Assembly: GCF_002866025.1 (NCBI RefSeq)
Contig: NZ_LNDE01000002.1
Coordinates: 124,001 to 188,000 of the forward strand
Direction of reading: 5' to 3'
Length of the DNA stretch: 64,000 nt
Source: Thermotoga sp. KOL6
Lineage (GTDB): Bacteria; Thermotogota; Thermotogae; Thermotogales; Thermotogaceae
The notes under the pieces were generated by a model, which was not told where the DNA came from, did not search any database, and saw nothing but the letters and a program-made list of their open reading frames with translations. The position numbers were made by a program, and so were the translations under genes. Below are positions 7,089 to 49,841 of the stretch, one piece after another. Numbering within the stretch: the first letter of the stretch is position 1; the number at the start of each line of letters is the position of its first letter.

Positions 7089-7472
7089 ATGCTACCGAAA
7101 TGTCCGGTGTGTGGAAAAGAGATGATTGTGACAGGGCTTCATTGTGATAGAGATAACGTCACCGTGAAAGGACGTTTTAGAGCAAGTCCCTTTGATTTTC
7201 TGGATGAAGATGATCTCGAATTCGTCATTCTATTTTTTAGGGCGCGAGGGAATTTAAAAGAGATAGAGCGTTACACGGGACAAGGATATTTCGCTCTGAG
7301 AGGGAGATTGGAAAGAATTCTGGAGAAGATGAAACTTCAACCGCTTGGAGAAGTGAAAGAAGAGGTTTCAGAGGAAGATCTTTTTAAACAAGTGAAGGAG
7401 GGAAAGATCAGTGTTGAAGAAGCTTTGGAACTCCTTAAGAAAAGGAAAAAGGGAGGGGAAAGTGATGTCTGA
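7089..7472 (+). CDS. DUF2089 family protein (zinc ribbon plus helix-turn-helix-like region)
   Basis: 127 residues. The N-terminus has a CPVCGK zinc-ribbon half (C5, C8) with a further Cys19. Residues about 40-90 contain a sigma-like or HTH-like helical region (GNLKEIERYTGQGYFALRGR), and the C-terminus (about 92-120) resembles a short SHOCT-type helical hairpin (KQVKEGKISVEEALELL). DUF2089 proteins are usually regarded as small regulators; their targets are unknown. Perfect ribosome site AGGAGGTGA. It is first in an apparent four-gene operon and overlaps the next gene by eight bases, so it may regulate its own operon. Confidence 0.82.
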   Translation: MLPKCPVCGKEMIVTGLHCDRDNVTVKGRFRASPFDFLDEDDLEFVILFFRARGNLKEIERYTGQGYFALRGRLERILEKMKLQPLGEVKEEVSEEDLFKQVKEGKISVEEALELLKKRKKGGESDV

Positions 7473-9492: not shown

Positions 9493-9512
9493 GGCTTAAA
9501 AGCGGCCTCATT
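9488..9512. terminator. hairpin shared by two convergent gene ends
   Basis: AATGAGGC (9488-9495) and GCCTCATT (9505-9512) form an 8-bp stem spanning both stop codons of the MFS gene and the convergent radical SAM gene. No T-run follows on either strand, so it may be a weak terminator or an mRNA 3'-end stabiliser. Confidence 0.4.
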
Positions 9513-10443
9513 GCTCCACCTTATAGTAATAGAATGTTATAGATCTCCACTCTTTCAAAATTACCCGAGGATGTTTTCGAAGGTTTTCAACGGACATCCT
9601 CGGGTCGTTGGAAAATCTAGAGAGCAGACTAGTCACCTCTGCTTCAGTCATAGGATGACGTTTGATTATAGAAATGATACCTTCAATGGGATTTTGCGAG
9701 AAAATTTCGTAGTCACTTTCAGTAAAGAAGTCCAGTGCGATCGCATTCAAAATTTTAGCTGCTTTTTTCAAAGTCTGAGTATCAGGTGGCTCTACCCATG
9801 CTTCTGCTGGAGGCCTTATAGGAACATTGAGATAAACCCTATCTGGAGAGATCTCTTCGACGATATGTTTTATTCTGGAAAGAACTGAGTCACTGTCGTT
9901 GATGTTTTTCATTAACATTATTTCCAACCATACTTGTCCCGTGTATTCTTTGATGAACGTTTTCAAACCTTCGATGATTTCCTCGAATTTGAGCGACGGA
10001 TGTGGTCGATTAATTCGACGAAAGCTTTTCTCATCCCATGCATCCAGAGATGGAAGAACGATGTCGGCGTACGACAGTGCTTTTCTTACTTCTGGTTTGT
10101 AAAGCAGCGAACCGTTGGTGATGACAGCTATTGGTAAACTCACATACTTTCGAATTCCCAATATGAGTTCGTCGAGTTTTGAATAAAGTGTCGGTTCTCC
10201 TTCTCCGACTATGGTAACAACATCCGCATCGCTCGGTGGAATATTCGCTATCTCTTCTATGATATCCTTCACCGGATAGAACTCTTGCCTTGTGTTGGTC
10301 ATTCTTGTGGTCCTACCGAGCTGACAATATACACAGGAATAATTACACGTTTTCGCGGGAATAGGACTAACCCCTAGGGATTTCCCTAGGCGTCTTGAAA
10401 ACACAGGTCCATAAACATACTTGTAATCCATACACATCACCAT
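9508..10443 (-). CDS. radical SAM protein of the Mrp/NifX cluster
   Basis: 311 residues. The radical SAM cluster motif is C-x3-C-x2-C in KTCNYSCVYCQLG (about residues 33-43), followed by the SAM-binding GEGEPTLY segment and VITNGSLL. The C-terminus is an HTH-like extension (HPMTEAEVTSLLSRF). Homologues are annotated only as radical SAM proteins, often beside NifX/Mrp genes. The start is uncertain among in-frame GTG/ATG codons at 10443-10431; GGTGAT favours the last. It follows the tandem NifX-like gene directly and is the last gene of the cluster. Confidence 0.85.
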   Translation of the reverse strand: MVMCMDYKYVYGPVFSRRLGKSLGVSPIPAKTCNYSCVYCQLGRTTRMTNTRQEFYPVKDIIEEIANIPPSDADVVTIVGEGEPTLYSKLDELILGIRKYVSLPIAVITNGSLLYKPEVRKALSYADIVLPSLDAWDEKSFRRINRPHPSLKFEEIIEGLKTFIKEYTGQVWLEIMLMKNINDSDSVLSRIKHIVEEISPDRVYLNVPIRPPAEAWVEPPDTQTLKKAAKILNAIALDFFTESDYEIFSQNPIEGIISIIKRHPMTEAEVTSLLSRFSNDPRMSVENLRKHPRVILKEWRSITFYYYKVEQ

Positions 10444-11163
10444 TCATTCTACAGAGTGAGTTGGGCCACTCATTTTCGTCAGCGTTCCTTGTTTGTACGC
10501 CTCGATCGCTCCTTTGAGAGTTTTGCCTTGGAACAAGTATATCTCTATACCTGCCATTTTCAACGCTTCGTAGGCATTGGCGCCTACATTTGCGGTGATC
10601 AAGACATCAACTCCTTTGTCCGCCAGGAACTGTGCCATCCGTGGTCCTGCCCCATGAGCTTCAGCTACAGTATTTTCATGGAAATTGAATTCGCCCGTTG
10701 CCTCATCGAAAATCGCAATATAAGATGCTCGTGCGAATCTCTGATCTATTTCTGCATCGAGGCTTTCTGAAGTAACCGGTATAGCCACTCTTTTCGGTTT
10801 CCGACTGTGAAAATGTTCTGTAGGTTCGTACTCAGAGTCCTTCAACTCGCCTCGAAGGTAGGACTCTACCAGTTCCTTTACAGTTCCATGAGCACCACGT
10901 AAAACACGAATTCCGTACTCATTCAGATATTCAACGGCTCTGTGGCCTATACCTCGTGCGATCAGAACGTCTACACCTTTCCCTTTCATGTATCCAGGGA
11001 TCTGACCAGGGCCATGTTCGATGAATGGATTTGGCTCCACTTCCACAGAGACGATTTTTCCATCTTCTACTTCTATGAATGCGTAATACGGTGCTCGGCC
11101 GAAATGTTCTGATATCACTGAATTTAAACCCTCATCTTTGATGACAGGTATAGCTATTTTCAT
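10444..11163 (-). CDS. tandem NifX/NifB-type dinitrogenase iron-molybdenum cofactor domain protein
   Basis: 239 residues made of two copies of the NifX-like fold: residues about 1-115 (MKIAIPVI, SEHFGRAPYYAF, GVDVLIARGIG) and 127-235 (RVAIPVTS, DQRFARASYIAIFD, GVDVLITANVG). Such domains bind or carry metal clusters in nitrogenase maturation and in the orange-protein complexes of anaerobes; no nitrogenase is visible here. The ATG at 11163 is chosen for its GGGAGGGG site; a longer frame from 11178 has none. The position between ferredoxin-ATPases and a radical SAM enzyme suggests a shared iron-sulfur or metal-cluster task. Confidence 0.85.
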   Translation of the reverse strand: MKIAIPVIKDEGLNSVISEHFGRAPYYAFIEVEDGKIVSVEVEPNPFIEHGPGQIPGYMKGKGVDVLIARGIGHRAVEYLNEYGIRVLRGAHGTVKELVESYLRGELKDSEYEPTEHFHSRKPKRVAIPVTSESLDAEIDQRFARASYIAIFDEATGEFNFHENTVAEAHGAGPRMAQFLADKGVDVLITANVGANAYEALKMAGIEIYLFQGKTLKGAIEAYKQGTLTKMSGPTHSVE

Positions 11164-11179
11164 TTCAACCCCTCCCATT

Positions 11180-12049
11180 TCAGATTTCGAGTTCTTTCTT
11201 CAGATTTTTGAATATCTCAACAATACTGTACACTGCCGGACTCTCAGGGTATTCTAAAATGGATACACCGTTCACAGTAGCAGTGTTTACAATTGGGTCA
11301 AAAGGAATCTCTCCCAAAATAGTGATATTTTCATTTTTACAGTATGAAGCTATTTCTTCTTTTCTTTCGGGATTTATTGTAGACTTGTTGATTACCACTC
11401 CAAATCTCCTTCTGTAGAGCCGAACAGTTTCAACAATGCGTTGAAGATCGTGAAATCCTGATGCGGTGGGTTCTGTCACTATTACAACGTAAGTCGCGCC
11501 GGTGATAGAAGAAGTAGCAGGACAACCGATACCTGGGGCTCCATCAATGACAACGATATCCCGTCCAGATTCCTTGAACTTCAGGGCAGCTTTTCTCACT
11601 TCCGCGACAAGGCCTCCACTGGTCTCTTCACCAGGCTGGAGTTTTGCGTGAACCATGGGACGATTACCTGCCATGGAAACATAATATTCCCCGGCTTTGT
11701 TACTCACTAAATTTACTGCACTGTATGGACATTTGAGTACACAGACACCACAGCCTTCACAAGCGTAAGGATCAATCGTTACCTTACCTTCTTCGTGTTT
11801 TATTGCGTTGAATCTACAAAACTTTTCGCAAACTCCACAAGAAGTGCATTTTGTGTAATCTATGACCGCTTTTTTTCCTCCAAAGTATTCGTATTTTTGC
11901 TGTATGATCGGCCGAAAGATAAGATGGAGGTTCGGAGCGTCTACATCACAGTCTGCTATTACGTTATTTTCGAAGAGCAGGTTCAAAGCAGCTGAGAGTG
12001 TGGTCTTTCCTGTTCCACCTTTCCCACTTACGACAGCTATTTGTATCAT
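11180..12049 (-). CDS. Mrp/MinD-type P-loop ATPase with inserted 2[4Fe-4S] ferredoxin domain (second copy)
   Basis: 289 residues from an ATG overlapping the preceding stop (ATGA). The deviant Walker A SGKGGTGKTT lies at residues 8-17. Two ferredoxin motifs are inserted at about residues 65-110 (CTSCGVCEKFC, then CEGCGVCVLKCPYSAV). The switch motif VVIDGAPGIGCP follows. Proteins of this architecture are thought to bind or deliver iron-sulfur clusters using ATP; two paralogues side by side probably act as a heterodimer. An in-frame upstream ATG exists but sits inside the first copy. Confidence 0.88.
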   Translation of the reverse strand: MIQIAVVSGKGGTGKTTLSAALNLLFENNVIADCDVDAPNLHLIFRPIIQQKYEYFGGKKAVIDYTKCTSCGVCEKFCRFNAIKHEEGKVTIDPYACEGCGVCVLKCPYSAVNLVSNKAGEYYVSMAGNRPMVHAKLQPGEETSGGLVAEVRKAALKFKESGRDIVVIDGAPGIGCPATSSITGATYVVIVTEPTASGFHDLQRIVETVRLYRRRFGVVINKSTINPERKEEIASYCKNENITILGEIPFDPIVNTATVNGVSILEYPESPAVYSIVEIFKNLKKELEI

Positions 12050-12897
12050 ACGTTCACCAGCTCCTTGATCTCTTTGAAAAGTTCGGTGAATTTTGTCTTC
12101 CACTCTGGAAGTTGAGCCGAGAGAAGTATTCCTCGCGAGTAAAGCTCTGCAATCCGGGTATCATAAGGGATTCTCATAAGAATCGGTATACCACTCTCTT
12201 TTGAAAAAAGGTCTATACCGTTGAAGCCCTCAGAATCTCTGTTCACAACTATCCCGGATTTAATTCCCATTTCTGCCACCAATTCTGCTGCCATACGGAC
12301 ATCATGAAGACCAAACGGTGTAGGTTCGGTAACAAGCAAAGCAAAATCTGCCCCACGGAGGGATTCCACCACAGAACAGGACGTACCCGGGGGTGCGTCA
12401 ATTATCACAACGTCAGCTGAAGTGTCTATGTTTTTCTTTAATTCTCTGATAATTTTCACACCAGAAGGTTCTCCGATATTTAAAACTCCCATACCAAAAC
12501 GAATATCATTGAGAGCTTCCCCTAACTTTATTTGACCGATGGGTTTGGGAATCTCTGTGATGGCTCTTTCAGGACATATCATAGAACAGGCACCGCAACC
12601 GTGACAAAGCGATTCAAAAACCATCACACCCGCTTTGAACACAGATATGGCGCCGAACTGGCATGCTTTGGCACACTCCCCACATTTGGTACAAACGGTC
12701 TGGTTCACTTTGGGAATTAATATCTCGACAGATTTCGTTTCATCTATTTGTGGCGATAGAAAAAGATGAGCATTTGGTTCTTCGACATCTGCGTCTAGTA
12801 ATTGTACTTTCCATTCAAAAGATAGAACCCATGCAAGATTAGTAGCAACAGTGGTTTTTCCCGTTCCACCTTTACCACTCAAAACTGTGATTATCAT
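12046..12897 (-). CDS. Mrp/MinD-type P-loop ATPase with inserted 2[4Fe-4S] ferredoxin domain (first copy)
   Basis: 283 residues. The deviant Walker A SGKGGTGKTT opens the protein (residues 7-16). Ferredoxin motifs CTKCGECAKACQFGAI and CHGCGACSMICPERAI follow at about residues 70-110, then the Mrp-type DAPPGTSC motif. It is about as long as, and collinear with, the next gene, evidence of an ancestral duplication. SD GGAGGTAATCG lies just upstream. The strong hairpin at 12931-12956 separates it from the DUF5320 gene and could lower its transcription relative to that gene. Confidence 0.88.
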   Translation of the reverse strand: MIITVLSGKGGTGKTTVATNLAWVLSFEWKVQLLDADVEEPNAHLFLSPQIDETKSVEILIPKVNQTVCTKCGECAKACQFGAISVFKAGVMVFESLCHGCGACSMICPERAITEIPKPIGQIKLGEALNDIRFGMGVLNIGEPSGVKIIRELKKNIDTSADVVIIDAPPGTSCSVVESLRGADFALLVTEPTPFGLHDVRMAAELVAEMGIKSGIVVNRDSEGFNGIDLFSKESGIPILMRIPYDTRIAELYSRGILLSAQLPEWKTKFTELFKEIKELVNV

Positions 12898-12962: not shown

Positions 12963-13214
12963 TTACCACCAAAAACCGGCTCTAGGGCCTCCACGCCATC
13001 CCCAACCTCTTCTGAACTGCATGCCAAAACCCCATCCTCGTCTCCATCCGAATCCTCTGCCCCATCCGGGCCAGAATCCGAAAGGTCTTCTGTACCAAGG
13101 TGAAACAGCGTAAGGACCATAGCCGGCCCCATAACGACACCATCCAAGGCCACGACCGGTCATTGGACCCATTCCTGCTGGTCCTGTTCCATCAAGTCCA
13201 GGCATGTTCTTCAC
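12963..13214 (-). CDS. DUF5320-like small Gly/Trp/Arg-rich protein
   Basis: 83 residues with the family opening MPGLDGTGPAGMGPMTGRG, one Cys (WCRYG), and then a Trp-, Gly- and Arg-rich tail ending in GGPRAGFWW. Such small proteins are repeatedly found with NifX-like and Mrp-like ATPase genes in anaerobes; their role is unknown. Strong ribosome site AAAGGAGGTGAAGAAC-ATG. It is the first gene after the palindrome-covered promoter at 13250-13287. The composition (17 Gly, 9 Trp by eye) is unlike its neighbours. Confidence 0.75.
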   Translation of the reverse strand: MKNMPGLDGTGPAGMGPMTGRGLGWCRYGAGYGPYAVSPWYRRPFGFWPGWGRGFGWRRGWGFGMQFRRGWGWRGGPRAGFWW

Positions 13215-13249
13215 CTCCTTTTGTTCTCGCTGTATATTACCTTCTTACC

Positions 13250-13287
13250 ATATATGTATTATACATATATTGTCTGTGATAAGTCAA
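13250..13287 (-). promoter_or_regulatory. promoter with 10-1-10 palindromic operator over its -10 box
   Basis: Minus strand: TTGACT (13287-13282), 18-base spacer, TATAAT (13263-13258). The -10 hexamer lies in the centre of a perfect inverted repeat, ATATATGTAT-T-ATACATATAT, at 13250-13270. A dimeric regulator bound there must exclude RNA polymerase. It drives the DUF5320/Mrp/NifX/radical SAM genes. The regulator is unknown. Confidence 0.68.
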
Positions 13288-13355
13288 GGGTGAGTGTGCA
13301 ACTCGTTGAGGGAATCGCGATCGAAAAATATCAGATTCGAAAACGTTCAGATCTC

Positions 13356-13384
13356 TTGATTTTCGTGAAGTGTTCTGTTAGAAT
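13356..13384 (+). promoter_or_regulatory. promoter of the aromatic operon and its leader
   Basis: TTGATT (13356-13361), a 17-base spacer and TAGAAT (13379-13384). The expected start near 13391 leaves only a few bases before the leader peptide ribosome site AGAGGTGG (13396-13403). Confidence 0.75.
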
Positions 13385-13409
13385 AATAATCAAATAGAGG
13401 TGGAAAGTT

Positions 13410-13493
13410 ATGCTTGTAGACAAAACGATGTGGATTGAACCTGTCAAGCACAATTATTATTACTTTTGGTTTAACAAGGGCACCTGTCCGTGA
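13410..13493 (+). CDS. aromatic leader peptide (27 codons) of the aro operon
   Basis: ATG at 13410, seven bases after AGAGGTGG, TGA at 13491-13493. The middle of the peptide reads HNYYYFWFN: three Tyr, Phe, Trp, Phe codons in a row at 13455-13472, plus another Trp at codon 8 (13431-13433). All three end products of the downstream pathway are thus sampled within six codons. The last codons and the stop overlap the first arm of the hairpin series at 13478-13577, the classical layout of a translated attenuator. Position, ribosome site and codon run make chance very unlikely. The peptide itself probably has no function. Confidence 0.85.
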   Translation: MLVDKTMWIEPVKHNYYYFWFNKGTCP

Positions 13494-13584
13494 GTGCAAC
13501 AGCTCCGGGCAGGTGCCTTTTTCGGTATCTGCCCGGAGCTAAATCAAAGAACAAAAGGGCTCCGGGCAGCGGAGCCCTTTTTTT
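13478..13584 (+). promoter_or_regulatory. five-segment transcription attenuator of the aro operon
   Basis: Five segments can pair only with their neighbours. A 13478-13490 pairs with B 13506-13518 (13 bp including two G-U, followed by TTTTT). B 13501-13512 pairs with C 13529-13540 (12 bp, perfect). C 13529-13539 pairs with D 13559-13569 (11 bp, perfect). D 13557-13564 pairs with E 13570-13577 (8 bp, loop GGCAG) followed by seven T. Proposed logic: a ribosome stalled on the aromatic codons leaves A free, so A:B and C:D form and the terminator D:E cannot. A ribosome reaching the stop codon covers A, so B:C and then D:E form and transcription ends. The logic is inference; the pairings are read directly. 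Confidence 0.82.
13557..13584 (+). terminator. intrinsic terminator of the aro attenuator
   Basis: GGGCTCCG, loop GGCAG, CGGAGCCC, then TTTTTTT, 27 bases before the aroF ATG. Its left arm is also complementary to 13529-13539, the antiterminator arm. Confidence 0.85.
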
Positions 13585-13611
13585 ATTACCAATTAGGGAG
13601 GTGGTACACCT

Positions 13612-47281: not shown

Positions 47282-49237
47282 TCATCTTCTTATAGCCGTT
47301 GAGCTGTAGAATTGTCTCTTTGGGTATTCGATTTCTCTTCTTTCTTTGTTAAACGCTGATACAGGAACAAGATAACCTACTATCCTCATGTATTCATCTA
47401 CTTTCGGTTTTCCACAAACAGGACATCTATTTCCGTAGAACGCATGATTTTGTTCACATACACTGATCTTTGTGTTGAAAGCAAAGTACATTACTCCCAT
47501 GTCTGCTATCATTTTCACCATGTTGAACGATTCCTCTTCAGTTTTGAACGGTTCTCCAAGATTTATATGTAATATGGCACCACCGCTCACTTTCTTATCC
47601 CATTTTCCAGAGTATCTGATTCTGTTTAAAACGTCTGTGTTTGCAGCTAGAGGTATCCACTGATTGGAGTAAATCTCGAAAGGCTGTCTTTTTCCGAATA
47701 TGAACCTATCTTTGAGAGCGAGTGTTACTGCGGCCTTTTCTGCGGGAACCTGTTCTATGTTGAATGTGAATCCGTACTCTTCGTATCCTTTTTCTGCTTC
47801 TTCCCTTATGAGTTCCAACATGGTATCCACGAACTTTTCACCTTCTTCTGTATACTTTAGTCCATCGACGTCTTCTTCTGTCATATCCATTATGGAAGCA
47901 CTCTCCCAAACTCCTGTAATTCCTATCGTACCGTATTGCCTGTTCAACAACATGAGTTCATTTTCGTAAAGGGGTAGAAGCCCCTCAGAAATTCTTTCTT
48001 TTATGATCTCTCTAACCGCTGAAAGTGCTTTCTTTACGAGCTGTACTCTATGTTTCAAAATGTGGACGAATCTTTCTTTATCACCATTGCTTTCTAACGC
48101 TATCCTTGGTAAGTTTATTGTTATAACTTTGAACGAACCTATATTCAAATCTGAACCACCTATGGAGTTCATTCTCCCTTTCAGTTTTGTATCTTCTTCA
48201 TTTGAAAGTGAGAACTTTTTCAACGTCCGAGTGGAGGAAGTAAGTCTGCAACACGAGGCAACCGCATCGATTGAATCGGAAATGTACCAATTTGTATCTT
48301 GCCATTTCATATTGATTCTGTTTATGAAGCGGGCGCTATCTTCGTCCAAAAATTTTCCATCTTTGTAAAGCAAACTTGCAGTGAGAACGGGGAAGGTGAA
48401 CATCTGCCTTTCTCTTTCTTTAGAAACCCATTCCCAGTAGTGTTTTTGAAGTCTTATTATGTCTTCCACGTGGTCGGTTATTAAGGTGCCATCGGGATAG
48501 TACTCTCCATCGAAAATGGCCTTTATGTAATTCCTATCGAGATAAGTGAAATTTGTGTAAGGAGATTGTGTTGTTCTGATGGGTTGGTTGAGTGAATATG
48601 TGAGTATTTGAAAGTGCTGTTCTATATACCAGTTGAGCTTTTCAGGAGGAATGATACCTTCCTCTAAATCCTTTTTAATGTAATACCACATCCACACAAA
48701 AAAGTCTGGTAATCCAACTGCACCGGAGCTTTGATTGGATGCAAACATTACGAATTGGATTACATGTTGTATAAATGTAGAAAGGTGTTTGGCGGGTTCT
48801 GATTTTATGGTCTTTATGAAAGGAAGTCCTCTCTCAACAATCGGTTTCAAAGTGTAAGCGAAACAATAAGGCATGAGAGCAGCGTGGTGTCTATCATGAA
48901 GGTAAATAGCACCGTTTATCTGAGACTCAATGAATTCATCGGCATATTCTTTTCCGAACATTTCTTTCATCTTCTGCCAGATTCTATAAAGTGAATACAG
49001 ATAAGTGTGAGGCTTGGAAATCTCAATGAAGTAAGTACTTATATTGGTTACCCTCACATTTGCGTTGGTATCGATGGTGGATTCTATGATACCCCTTTTT
49101 ACGAATTCTTCCGTGAACTTTACCACATCGAGTTGATCCCCTAGGCCGTCCAATTGAAACATTTCGTGACCGTATTTGGAAATAAGACTGTTCAGCAAAT
49201 TTTCGAAATCATTCTCAAATGAATATCGAACTATCAC
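47282..49237 (-). CDS. nrdD: anaerobic ribonucleoside-triphosphate reductase (class III)
   Basis: 651 residues, the length of the T. maritima enzyme. Makes dNTPs using a glycyl radical. The glycyl-radical loop is MRIVGYLVPV near the C-terminus, where most enzymes have RVCGYL; the Gly is conserved. The zinc site just before it is CEQNH-x6-CPVC, that is Cys-His-Cys-Cys rather than four Cys by eye. The T. maritima crystal structure was reported to lack a radical Cys pre-positioned in the active site. Its start overlaps the nrdG end by 23 bases. Confidence 0.95.
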   Translation of the reverse strand: MIVRYSFENDFENLLNSLISKYGHEMFQLDGLGDQLDVVKFTEEFVKRGIIESTIDTNANVRVTNISTYFIEISKPHTYLYSLYRIWQKMKEMFGKEYADEFIESQINGAIYLHDRHHAALMPYCFAYTLKPIVERGLPFIKTIKSEPAKHLSTFIQHVIQFVMFASNQSSGAVGLPDFFVWMWYYIKKDLEEGIIPPEKLNWYIEQHFQILTYSLNQPIRTTQSPYTNFTYLDRNYIKAIFDGEYYPDGTLITDHVEDIIRLQKHYWEWVSKERERQMFTFPVLTASLLYKDGKFLDEDSARFINRINMKWQDTNWYISDSIDAVASCCRLTSSTRTLKKFSLSNEEDTKLKGRMNSIGGSDLNIGSFKVITINLPRIALESNGDKERFVHILKHRVQLVKKALSAVREIIKERISEGLLPLYENELMLLNRQYGTIGITGVWESASIMDMTEEDVDGLKYTEEGEKFVDTMLELIREEAEKGYEEYGFTFNIEQVPAEKAAVTLALKDRFIFGKRQPFEIYSNQWIPLAANTDVLNRIRYSGKWDKKVSGGAILHINLGEPFKTEEESFNMVKMIADMGVMYFAFNTKISVCEQNHAFYGNRCPVCGKPKVDEYMRIVGYLVPVSAFNKERREIEYPKRQFYSSTAIRR

Positions 49238-49754
49238 GATGCTCCCTCCTTTTGATAACGTTTACCATCTTTTCAAAAGTTTCTCTGTCAATATGAAGTT
49301 GGTTCTTAGAGGCTGGAAAACCATCCTGATGATACTTGTGAAGATACCTTCCGAGAACGAATTCATCAACGTATTGAACGTATTCTAGTAGTCTCTCCCT
49401 CACAATGTCTTTTGGTGTTCTCCAACTGAAAAGAAGAATCACAAGTCTGGATCCGTACTTTTCTTTGAAATGTTTTGATAGGAGAAGAACATCTTTTCGG
49501 TTGTTTGGTGCCAAAGGCTCTCCCCCAAGCAGTGCCAAAGAGACTTTTGGAAAGTGTGTCAAGAGATTGGATATCTTCTCATTGATTATTTTTAGCGTCT
49601 TTTCTGGATCTCTCTTGTACTCTTCAGAAACAAGCCATGTCTCTGGGTTATGACACATGTAGCACTTTGGTTCGGCATCGCACCCTTGAAAGTAGACAGA
49701 TACCCCAAGGAGATCTGGATGATCTCTGAATGTACCGATTCTGTTTATGTACAA
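49215..49754 (-). CDS. nrdG: anaerobic ribonucleotide reductase activating protein (radical SAM)
   Basis: 179 residues. Generates the glycyl radical on NrdD. The cluster motif is C-DAEPK-C-YM-C, i.e. C-x5-C-x2-C, in QGCDAEPKCYMCHNPETW, instead of the usual C-x3-C-x2-C; the following HNPETW is the NrdG signature. LALLGGEPLAPNN is the SAM-binding GGE motif. TTG start with GGGGG ten bases upstream. It precedes nrdD in the operon, the reverse of the enterobacterial order. Confidence 0.92.
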   Translation of the reverse strand: MYINRIGTFRDHPDLLGVSVYFQGCDAEPKCYMCHNPETWLVSEEYKRDPEKTLKIINEKISNLLTHFPKVSLALLGGEPLAPNNRKDVLLLSKHFKEKYGSRLVILLFSWRTPKDIVRERLLEYVQYVDEFVLGRYLHKYHQDGFPASKNQLHIDRETFEKMVNVIKRREHRDSSIFI

Positions 49755-49789: not shown

Positions 49790-49841
49790 ATTATACCACA
49801 ATATATTGTGGTACTATGAGTTACATATCAATAAATTGTTG
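49790..49841 (-). promoter_or_regulatory. nrdGD promoter with tandem NrdR boxes
   Basis: Box 1 is CCACAATATATTGTGG (49796-49811) inside a perfect 20-bp palindrome (49794-49813); box 2 is TATCAATAAATTGTTG (49826-49841). Their cores CAATATATTG and CAATAAATTG lie exactly 30 bp apart, three helical turns, the arrangement of known NrdR operators (consensus acaCwAtATaTwGtgt). The minus-strand -10 box TATAAT (49795-49790) abuts box 1, so NrdR bound with ATP/dATP would block polymerase. The -35 box is weak. Confidence 0.78.

Follow-up and report, generated by a model that had tools for sequence, protein, structure and literature searches.

Which protein, if any, acts at a perfect inverted repeat that covers the promoter of an iron-sulfur-type operon in Thermotoga? 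We addressed this question in a 64-kb window (the whole stretch of DNA analyzed here, 64,000 nucleotides), which belongs to a 1.71-Mb genome (G000, the studied genome).

A perfect palindrome spans the -10 box of a DUF5320 operon promoter

An earlier note on this DNA had described an exact 10-1-10 palindrome, with TATAAT inside it, on the -10 box of the DUF5320/Mrp/NifX cluster, and direct reading confirmed this description. The 21-mer ATATATGTATTATACATATAT at 13250-13270 is perfectly palindromic and spans the -10 box of a minus-strand promoter, TTGACT-18-TATAAT, upstream of a DUF5320/Mrp/Mrp/NifX/radical-SAM operon. By direct reading and a promoter scan, the -10 box TATAAT was placed at 13258-13263 and the -35 box TTGACT at 13282-13287 (both on the minus strand), with an 18-bp spacer between them. 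Sigma-70-like promoters in T. maritima have spacers centred on 17 bp (PMC3636130), so the TTGACT-18-TATAAT reading is an ordinary one. The ribosome-binding site AGGAGGTGAA, read directly at 13210-13219 (minus strand), lies upstream of the ATG at 13205-13203. The 64-kb window holds 2 inverted repeats whose arms are 10 bp or longer and whose gap is 0 or 1, versus 0.05 expected under a first-order Markov model; the exact 21-mer had no match in 100 shuffles.

A second perfect palindrome, TACCACAATATATTGTGGTA (10-0-10), was seen at 49794-49813 of the window, ahead of a gene for a 4Fe-4S/radical-SAM activase-like protein (49215-49754, minus strand; the gene is thus downstream of the palindrome on that strand). 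It is present in a single copy in the genome within 3 mismatches, and resembles an NrdR box.

The first gene of the operon (12963-13205; all genes of the operon are on the minus strand) encodes a small Gly/Trp/Arg-rich DUF5320 protein (PF17253, E 8e-9); its longest open reading frame starts at 13214, and a start at the ATG at 13205 agrees with the ribosome-binding site. Domain matches identified the following genes as encoding Mrp1 (12046-12897), an MrpORP-like P-loop ATPase with two 4Fe-4S motifs; Mrp2 (11180-12049), a second P-loop ATPase with 4Fe-4S motifs; a tandem NifX/ORP-type (Nitro_FeMo-Co) protein (10444-11178; PF02579, E 6e-46) that corresponds to the C-terminal part of MrpORP; and, as the last product, a radical SAM protein (9508-10443). 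Mrp-type ATPases and a NifX/ORP domain are common to this operon and to the clusters for MrpORP and orange-protein (ORP) Fe-S carriers (NF041136). Unlike MrpORP, the operon has separate genes without the one fusion, and DUF5320 and radical SAM genes are added; Mrp1 (70.6 bits) and the NifX protein (101.7 bits) score below the NF041136 cut-off of 450, which applies to the fused protein.

Divergent from this operon is an aro operon with its own promoter-like sequence, TTGATT-TAGAAT, read by eye at about 13355-13385; the palindrome is therefore expected to serve the minus-strand operon. Directly before the DAHP synthase gene, at 13410-13600 (plus strand), we noticed an aromatic-rich leader peptide, MLVDKTMWIEPVKHNYYYFWFNKGTCP, ending at a stop codon; strong alternative hairpins and runs of T come after it. 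The region (fold z-score -6.7) resembles an attenuator for the aro operon.

An identical second copy lies on the promoter of another DUF5320 operon

The earlier note had proposed a genome-wide search for the 21-mer, and we carried it out. Exactly one other place in the 1.71-Mb genome was found within 3 mismatches, and its sequence is identical. As in the window, this copy covers the -10 box of a promoter of the TTGACT/TATAAT form. A second DUF5320 gene (PF17253, E 2e-11) begins 12 bp further on and opens an operon (G000:C1:630750) with the order DUF5320, a 47-amino-acid Trp-rich ORF and an MBL-fold hydrolase. Because both copies lie on promoters of DUF5320 operons, the palindrome appears to mark two operons with related first genes, that is, a small two-target regulon as predicted from the genome sequence.

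The 47-amino-acid ORF between DUF5320 and the MBL-fold hydrolase (L001:1742-1882) is rich in Trp and Arg, and other members of the genus have a second DUF5320-like ORF at its position.

The arms are conserved in Thermotogota while their position on the promoter shifts

All six of the other genomes of the genus carry ATATATGTATTTTACATATAT (opposite strand ATATATGTAAAATACATATAT) at the promoter of the DUF5320 gene, and one of them (G003) has extra copies of the motif near contig ends. A search of a plasmid collection with the intergenic region returned no match.

To avoid bias from the motif, Mrp1 loci were found by protein homology, in 29 of 61 genomes. Within 1 kb upstream of Mrp1, at least 12 of the 14 arm bases of ATATATG-N7-CATATAT were present at 23 of the 29 loci (0.34 expected) and at least 13 of the 14 at 17 (0.03 expected). 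A reversed-motif control was contaminated in this test by a one-base-shifted overlap with true sites, and the Markov expectation was used instead. Two further loci (L145 and L146) have their site slightly more than 1 kb upstream of Mrp1, in front of a PadR gene; upstream of Mrp1 in G019, G046 and G058 we found no good site.

Scanning 103 Thermotogota genomes with at most 1 mismatch gave 250 motif sites versus 128 for the reversed control, and 167 versus 61 when the most AT-rich genera (g20), in which the reversed control is nearly as frequent as the motif, were left aside. Most of the exact sites examined precede DUF5320, Mrp1, NifX, radical SAM or PadR genes. In Mesotoga-like genomes, the motif is also found 24 bp from a gene for a CoA-disulfide-reductase-like flavoprotein (L273 and L275, site at 1501), which suggests a larger regulon in these genomes.

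A set of 31 sites was compared base by base; since these sites had been chosen on their arms, arm counts in the set are circular and only the inner positions are informative. Position 8 is Y in 28 of the 31 and position 14 is R in 30, whereas only around one site in three is paired at 9/13 and 10/12, which rules out 10-1-10 as the conserved unit. The consensus in the phylum is ATATATGY-N5-RCATATAT with a 7-7-7 core, represented in the window by ATATATG at 13250-13256 and CATATAT at 13264-13270 on either side of N7 (motif comparison). The exact geometry stressed by the earlier note is thus present in the window, but what relatives keep is ATATATG-N7-CATATAT. The exact inner pairing appears incidental, with the 10-1-10 palindrome of the window being a strong instance and not the rule.

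Counted from where the -10 box ends, the centre of the palindrome lies at -2 in Thermotoga, at -11/-13 in several genomes, at +9/+11 in the largest group and at +18/+21 in others. The arms are therefore kept while their location relative to the -10 box shifts by up to 34 bp. Every one of these positions would hinder RNA polymerase, and none matches a fixed promoter element, and a motif that slides along the promoter is in keeping with a repressor instead. We had looked for relatives that keep the promoter and lose the arms, the outcome named in the earlier note as speaking against a dedicated repressor, and found the opposite; the proposal of a dedicated repressor is well supported by arms that persist as the promoter position moves.

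A PadR-family protein is the candidate regulator

When the genes near the sites were clustered, one transcription-factor family recurred, namely PadR, in 13 neighbourhoods. In several families of Thermotogota, as well as in three Caldisericota MAGs, the PadR gene is part of the Mrp/NifX cluster or adjoins it; in G045 and G057, PadR is the first gene after the site.

The studied genome encodes two clear PadR proteins. The candidate (G000:C1:16220-16567, 117 amino acids) is unlinked to both target operons and neighbours a methyltransferase-like gene and an SAH/MTA-deaminase-like amidohydrolase gene (TM0936-like). It passes the gathering score of the PF03551 winged-helix family (71.2 bits versus a cut-off of 27, E 7.4e-20). 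The candidate has orthologues in all six genus members; with it they give profile E-values from 1e-48 to 1e-52 (1e-52 for the G000 protein) and form a supported Thermotoga clade apart from the paralogue L219. The PadR tree as a whole is poorly resolved (119 columns), and the cluster-embedded PadRs require 3 label changes on it. With few exceptions in the wider set, PadRs of the subfamily, as well as those reached by the 21-mer scan described below, share the recognition-helix motif GN[ILV]YR. The second PadR of G000 (L219) was rejected as the regulator: its helix reads GALYP, it has no PhaQ match and it falls in a separate clade.

By profile search (E 1e-50), the T. maritima orthologue TM0937 corresponds to PDB 2ESH, with other PadR structures also matched. 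The entry 2ESH is described only as a 'conserved hypothetical protein'; the literature searched held no function, operator or regulon for TM0937 and nothing relevant on DUF5320/Mrp/NifX/PadR. Across the 103 genomes, PadR and DUF5320 occur together in 58, PadR alone in 11, DUF5320 alone in 10 and neither in 24 (Fisher p 8e-8, in a test that ignores phylogeny).

Other proteins in or near the cluster were considered. The radical SAM protein was rejected as the regulator, being missing from G002, G004, G005, G019, G021, G027 and G031, most of which have a site. Its C-terminal ~60 residues read like a winged-helix domain and have no Pfam match. DUF134 proteins adjoin such NifX/Mrp clusters; the studied genome has no PF02001 match, and DUF134 was rejected as well. 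A DUF2089 zinc-ribbon/HTH protein, a possible nearby regulator, is encoded at 7089-7472 (plus strand) and is followed by a SHOCT/bactofilin-like protein.

The operator type recurs beside PadR genes outside Thermotogota

We scanned about 85,000 species genomes with the query ATATATGTAWWWTACATATAT and obtained 41 stretches, among them ones from Thermotogota and Caldisericota and many from Neobacillus/Bacillus. In N. pocheonensis, three exact operators surround phaQ-phaP (L027:543-2307), one of them ~20 bp before phaQ. The phaQ product scores 138.4 bits against TIGR02719, slightly under the cut-off of 139.35, and PhaP_Bmeg follows. An exact operator of the 21-mer type also lies upstream of an operon for a class II aldolase and a PadR protein in Acidithiobacillus (L055:668-1736) and in a gammaproteobacterium (L042:1374-2863), where a carboxymuconolactone decarboxylase (CMD) gene comes next in the operon. 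The 21-mer scan, independently, links the putative operator to PadR beyond Thermotogota. Many further matches of the scan may be due to chance. The same 21-mer was also seen at many other Neobacillus loci, which may be further PhaQ targets.

The earlier note had not recognized the site as that of a known regulator. The regulator need not be of an unknown class, as the same type of 21-mer occurs in the phaQ-phaP promoter region of Neobacillus. TIGR02719, the family of the PHB-responsive PhaQ of Bacillus megaterium (phaQ-phaP), is the top NCBIfam match of the candidate (8e-12). At 45.6 bits the G000 protein is far under the cut-off of 139.35, and we therefore regard the candidate as PhaQ-like and not as a PhaQ. 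The two share the GNxYR recognition helix, and an operator of the same type directly precedes phaQ in Neobacillus. They differ in that PhaQ has PHA granule cargo and a site at its own promoter; a phaP neighbour and PHB metabolism are missing at the candidate locus, and PHB is not expected to be the ligand of the candidate. PhaQ itself is established as an autorepressor and hampers the binding of RNA polymerase (PMC9049629).

The published PadR consensus is ATGT-N8-10-ACAT (PMC3506622). LmrR and bcPadR1 (PadR-s2) belong to the same family, with a winged HTH and a C-terminal dimer helix, and likewise have a palindromic operator over the promoter. Their half-sites are N8-10 apart, whereas ATATATG-N7-CATATAT reads ATGT-N5-ACAT where the T is present; the latter form is found in the window and the 7-7-7 consensus elsewhere, so that the site departs from the canonical PadR/LmrR operator.

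Alternative explanations

The overlap of TATAAT with an ATATAT context could mean that the palindrome merely belongs to the promoter, or is an AT-rich repeat that arose by chance, with no regulator involved. The palindrome is indeed AT-rich and its overlap with the -10 box in Thermotoga exact, and the reversed control is nearly as frequent as the motif in g20. Nevertheless, the expectation of 0.05 such palindromes per 64 kb and the 23 loci found versus 0.34 expected in the Mrp1-anchored test stand against this explanation, and it is largely refuted by the movement of constant arms by up to 34 bp along the promoter and by the genome count, with two DUF5320 operons carrying the sole sites in 1.7 Mb. 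We consider it very improbable. The inverted repeat could also work at the RNA level, folding into a hairpin where the mRNA begins or close to its ribosome-binding site. In G027, G031, G033 and G039 it would be transcribed, lying about +9 to +29 past the -10 box beside the ribosome-binding site. In Thermotoga, however, it covers the -10 box, and transcription would be expected to begin past the left arm, leaving only the right arm in the transcript; in G010, g9 and others it is upstream of or within the -10 box. The strictly conserved G/C at the arm ends and the free centre of 5-7 nt fit protein half-sites, and of all the readings we weighed, a hairpin is the least probable.

The remaining alternatives accept a real operator and concern the protein. 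Another dedicated regulator (of the MarR, ArsR or Rrf2 type, or the nearby DUF2089 HTH protein) might bind it, with PadR a mere neighbour. In favour of this, the Thermotoga PadR gene is not linked to the sites and carries no copy of the motif at its own promoter, PadR matches are just weak in G075 and G076 despite their good sites, and the DUF2089 gene lies in the same window. On the other hand, among the neighbourhoods compared PadR is the recurring HTH family, seen at 13 loci from two phyla; a search with nothing but the 21-mer also arrived at PadR genes in unrelated phyla, and the radical SAM and DUF134 proteins are missing as described above. We regard another regulator as unlikely. A repressor that senses redox state or metal and acts directly on the iron-sulfur operon, as the earlier note had suggested, is about equally unlikely. 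Its appeal lies in the cargo of Fe-S/ORP-type genes and in the CoA-disulfide-reductase-like flavoprotein gene that adjoins the same motif in Mesotoga-like genomes. The suggestion found no support in the best candidate, a cysteine-free PadR nearest PhaQ: its only histidines are His28 and His48, and the subfamily has no invariant Cys or metal-ligand set. PhaQ, the closest curated family, responds to polymer (PHB), and other PadRs respond to aromatic or drug-like molecules.

Proposed mechanism and implications

We observed the palindrome, its two sites in the genome, its phylum-wide conservation on the same operons and its association with one PadR subfamily. The palindrome is most likely the operator of a PhaQ-like repressor of the PadR family, the TM0937 orthologue. 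We infer that this protein is the binder, that it represses by binding and that a ligand induces the operons. A PadR dimer would sit on the two ATATATG half-sites with its dyad at the middle base; the bound dimer would cover the -10 box of both DUF5320 promoters and shut out RNA polymerase, and would be released by a small molecule or a cluster-linked signal. As the candidate lacks cysteine, it is unlikely to act as a direct thiol or Fe-S sensor; metal sensing through non-Cys residues is conceivable. Judged from sequence comparison, the conserved operator appears real, the predicted two-operon regulon new and the putative repressor of a known kind.

More broadly, and with somewhat better than even confidence, we propose that the GNxYR-helix PadR/PhaQ-like subfamily and its 7-7-7 operator may be an ancestral, phylum-wide regulator of DUF5320/Mrp/NifX(ORP) clusters in Thermotogota and Caldisericota. 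It would sense the product of the cluster or the state of a cofactor, and would have been recruited to PHB granules in Bacillaceae and to an aldolase pathway in Acidithiobacillus. With this assignment, TM0937/2ESH, an orphan solved structure, gains a predicted operator and a predicted two-operon regulon, and the uncharacterized DUF5320/Mrp/NifX clusters gain a predicted dedicated regulator that is conserved across the phylum. Control of their expression may provide a handle for finding the products of these clusters.
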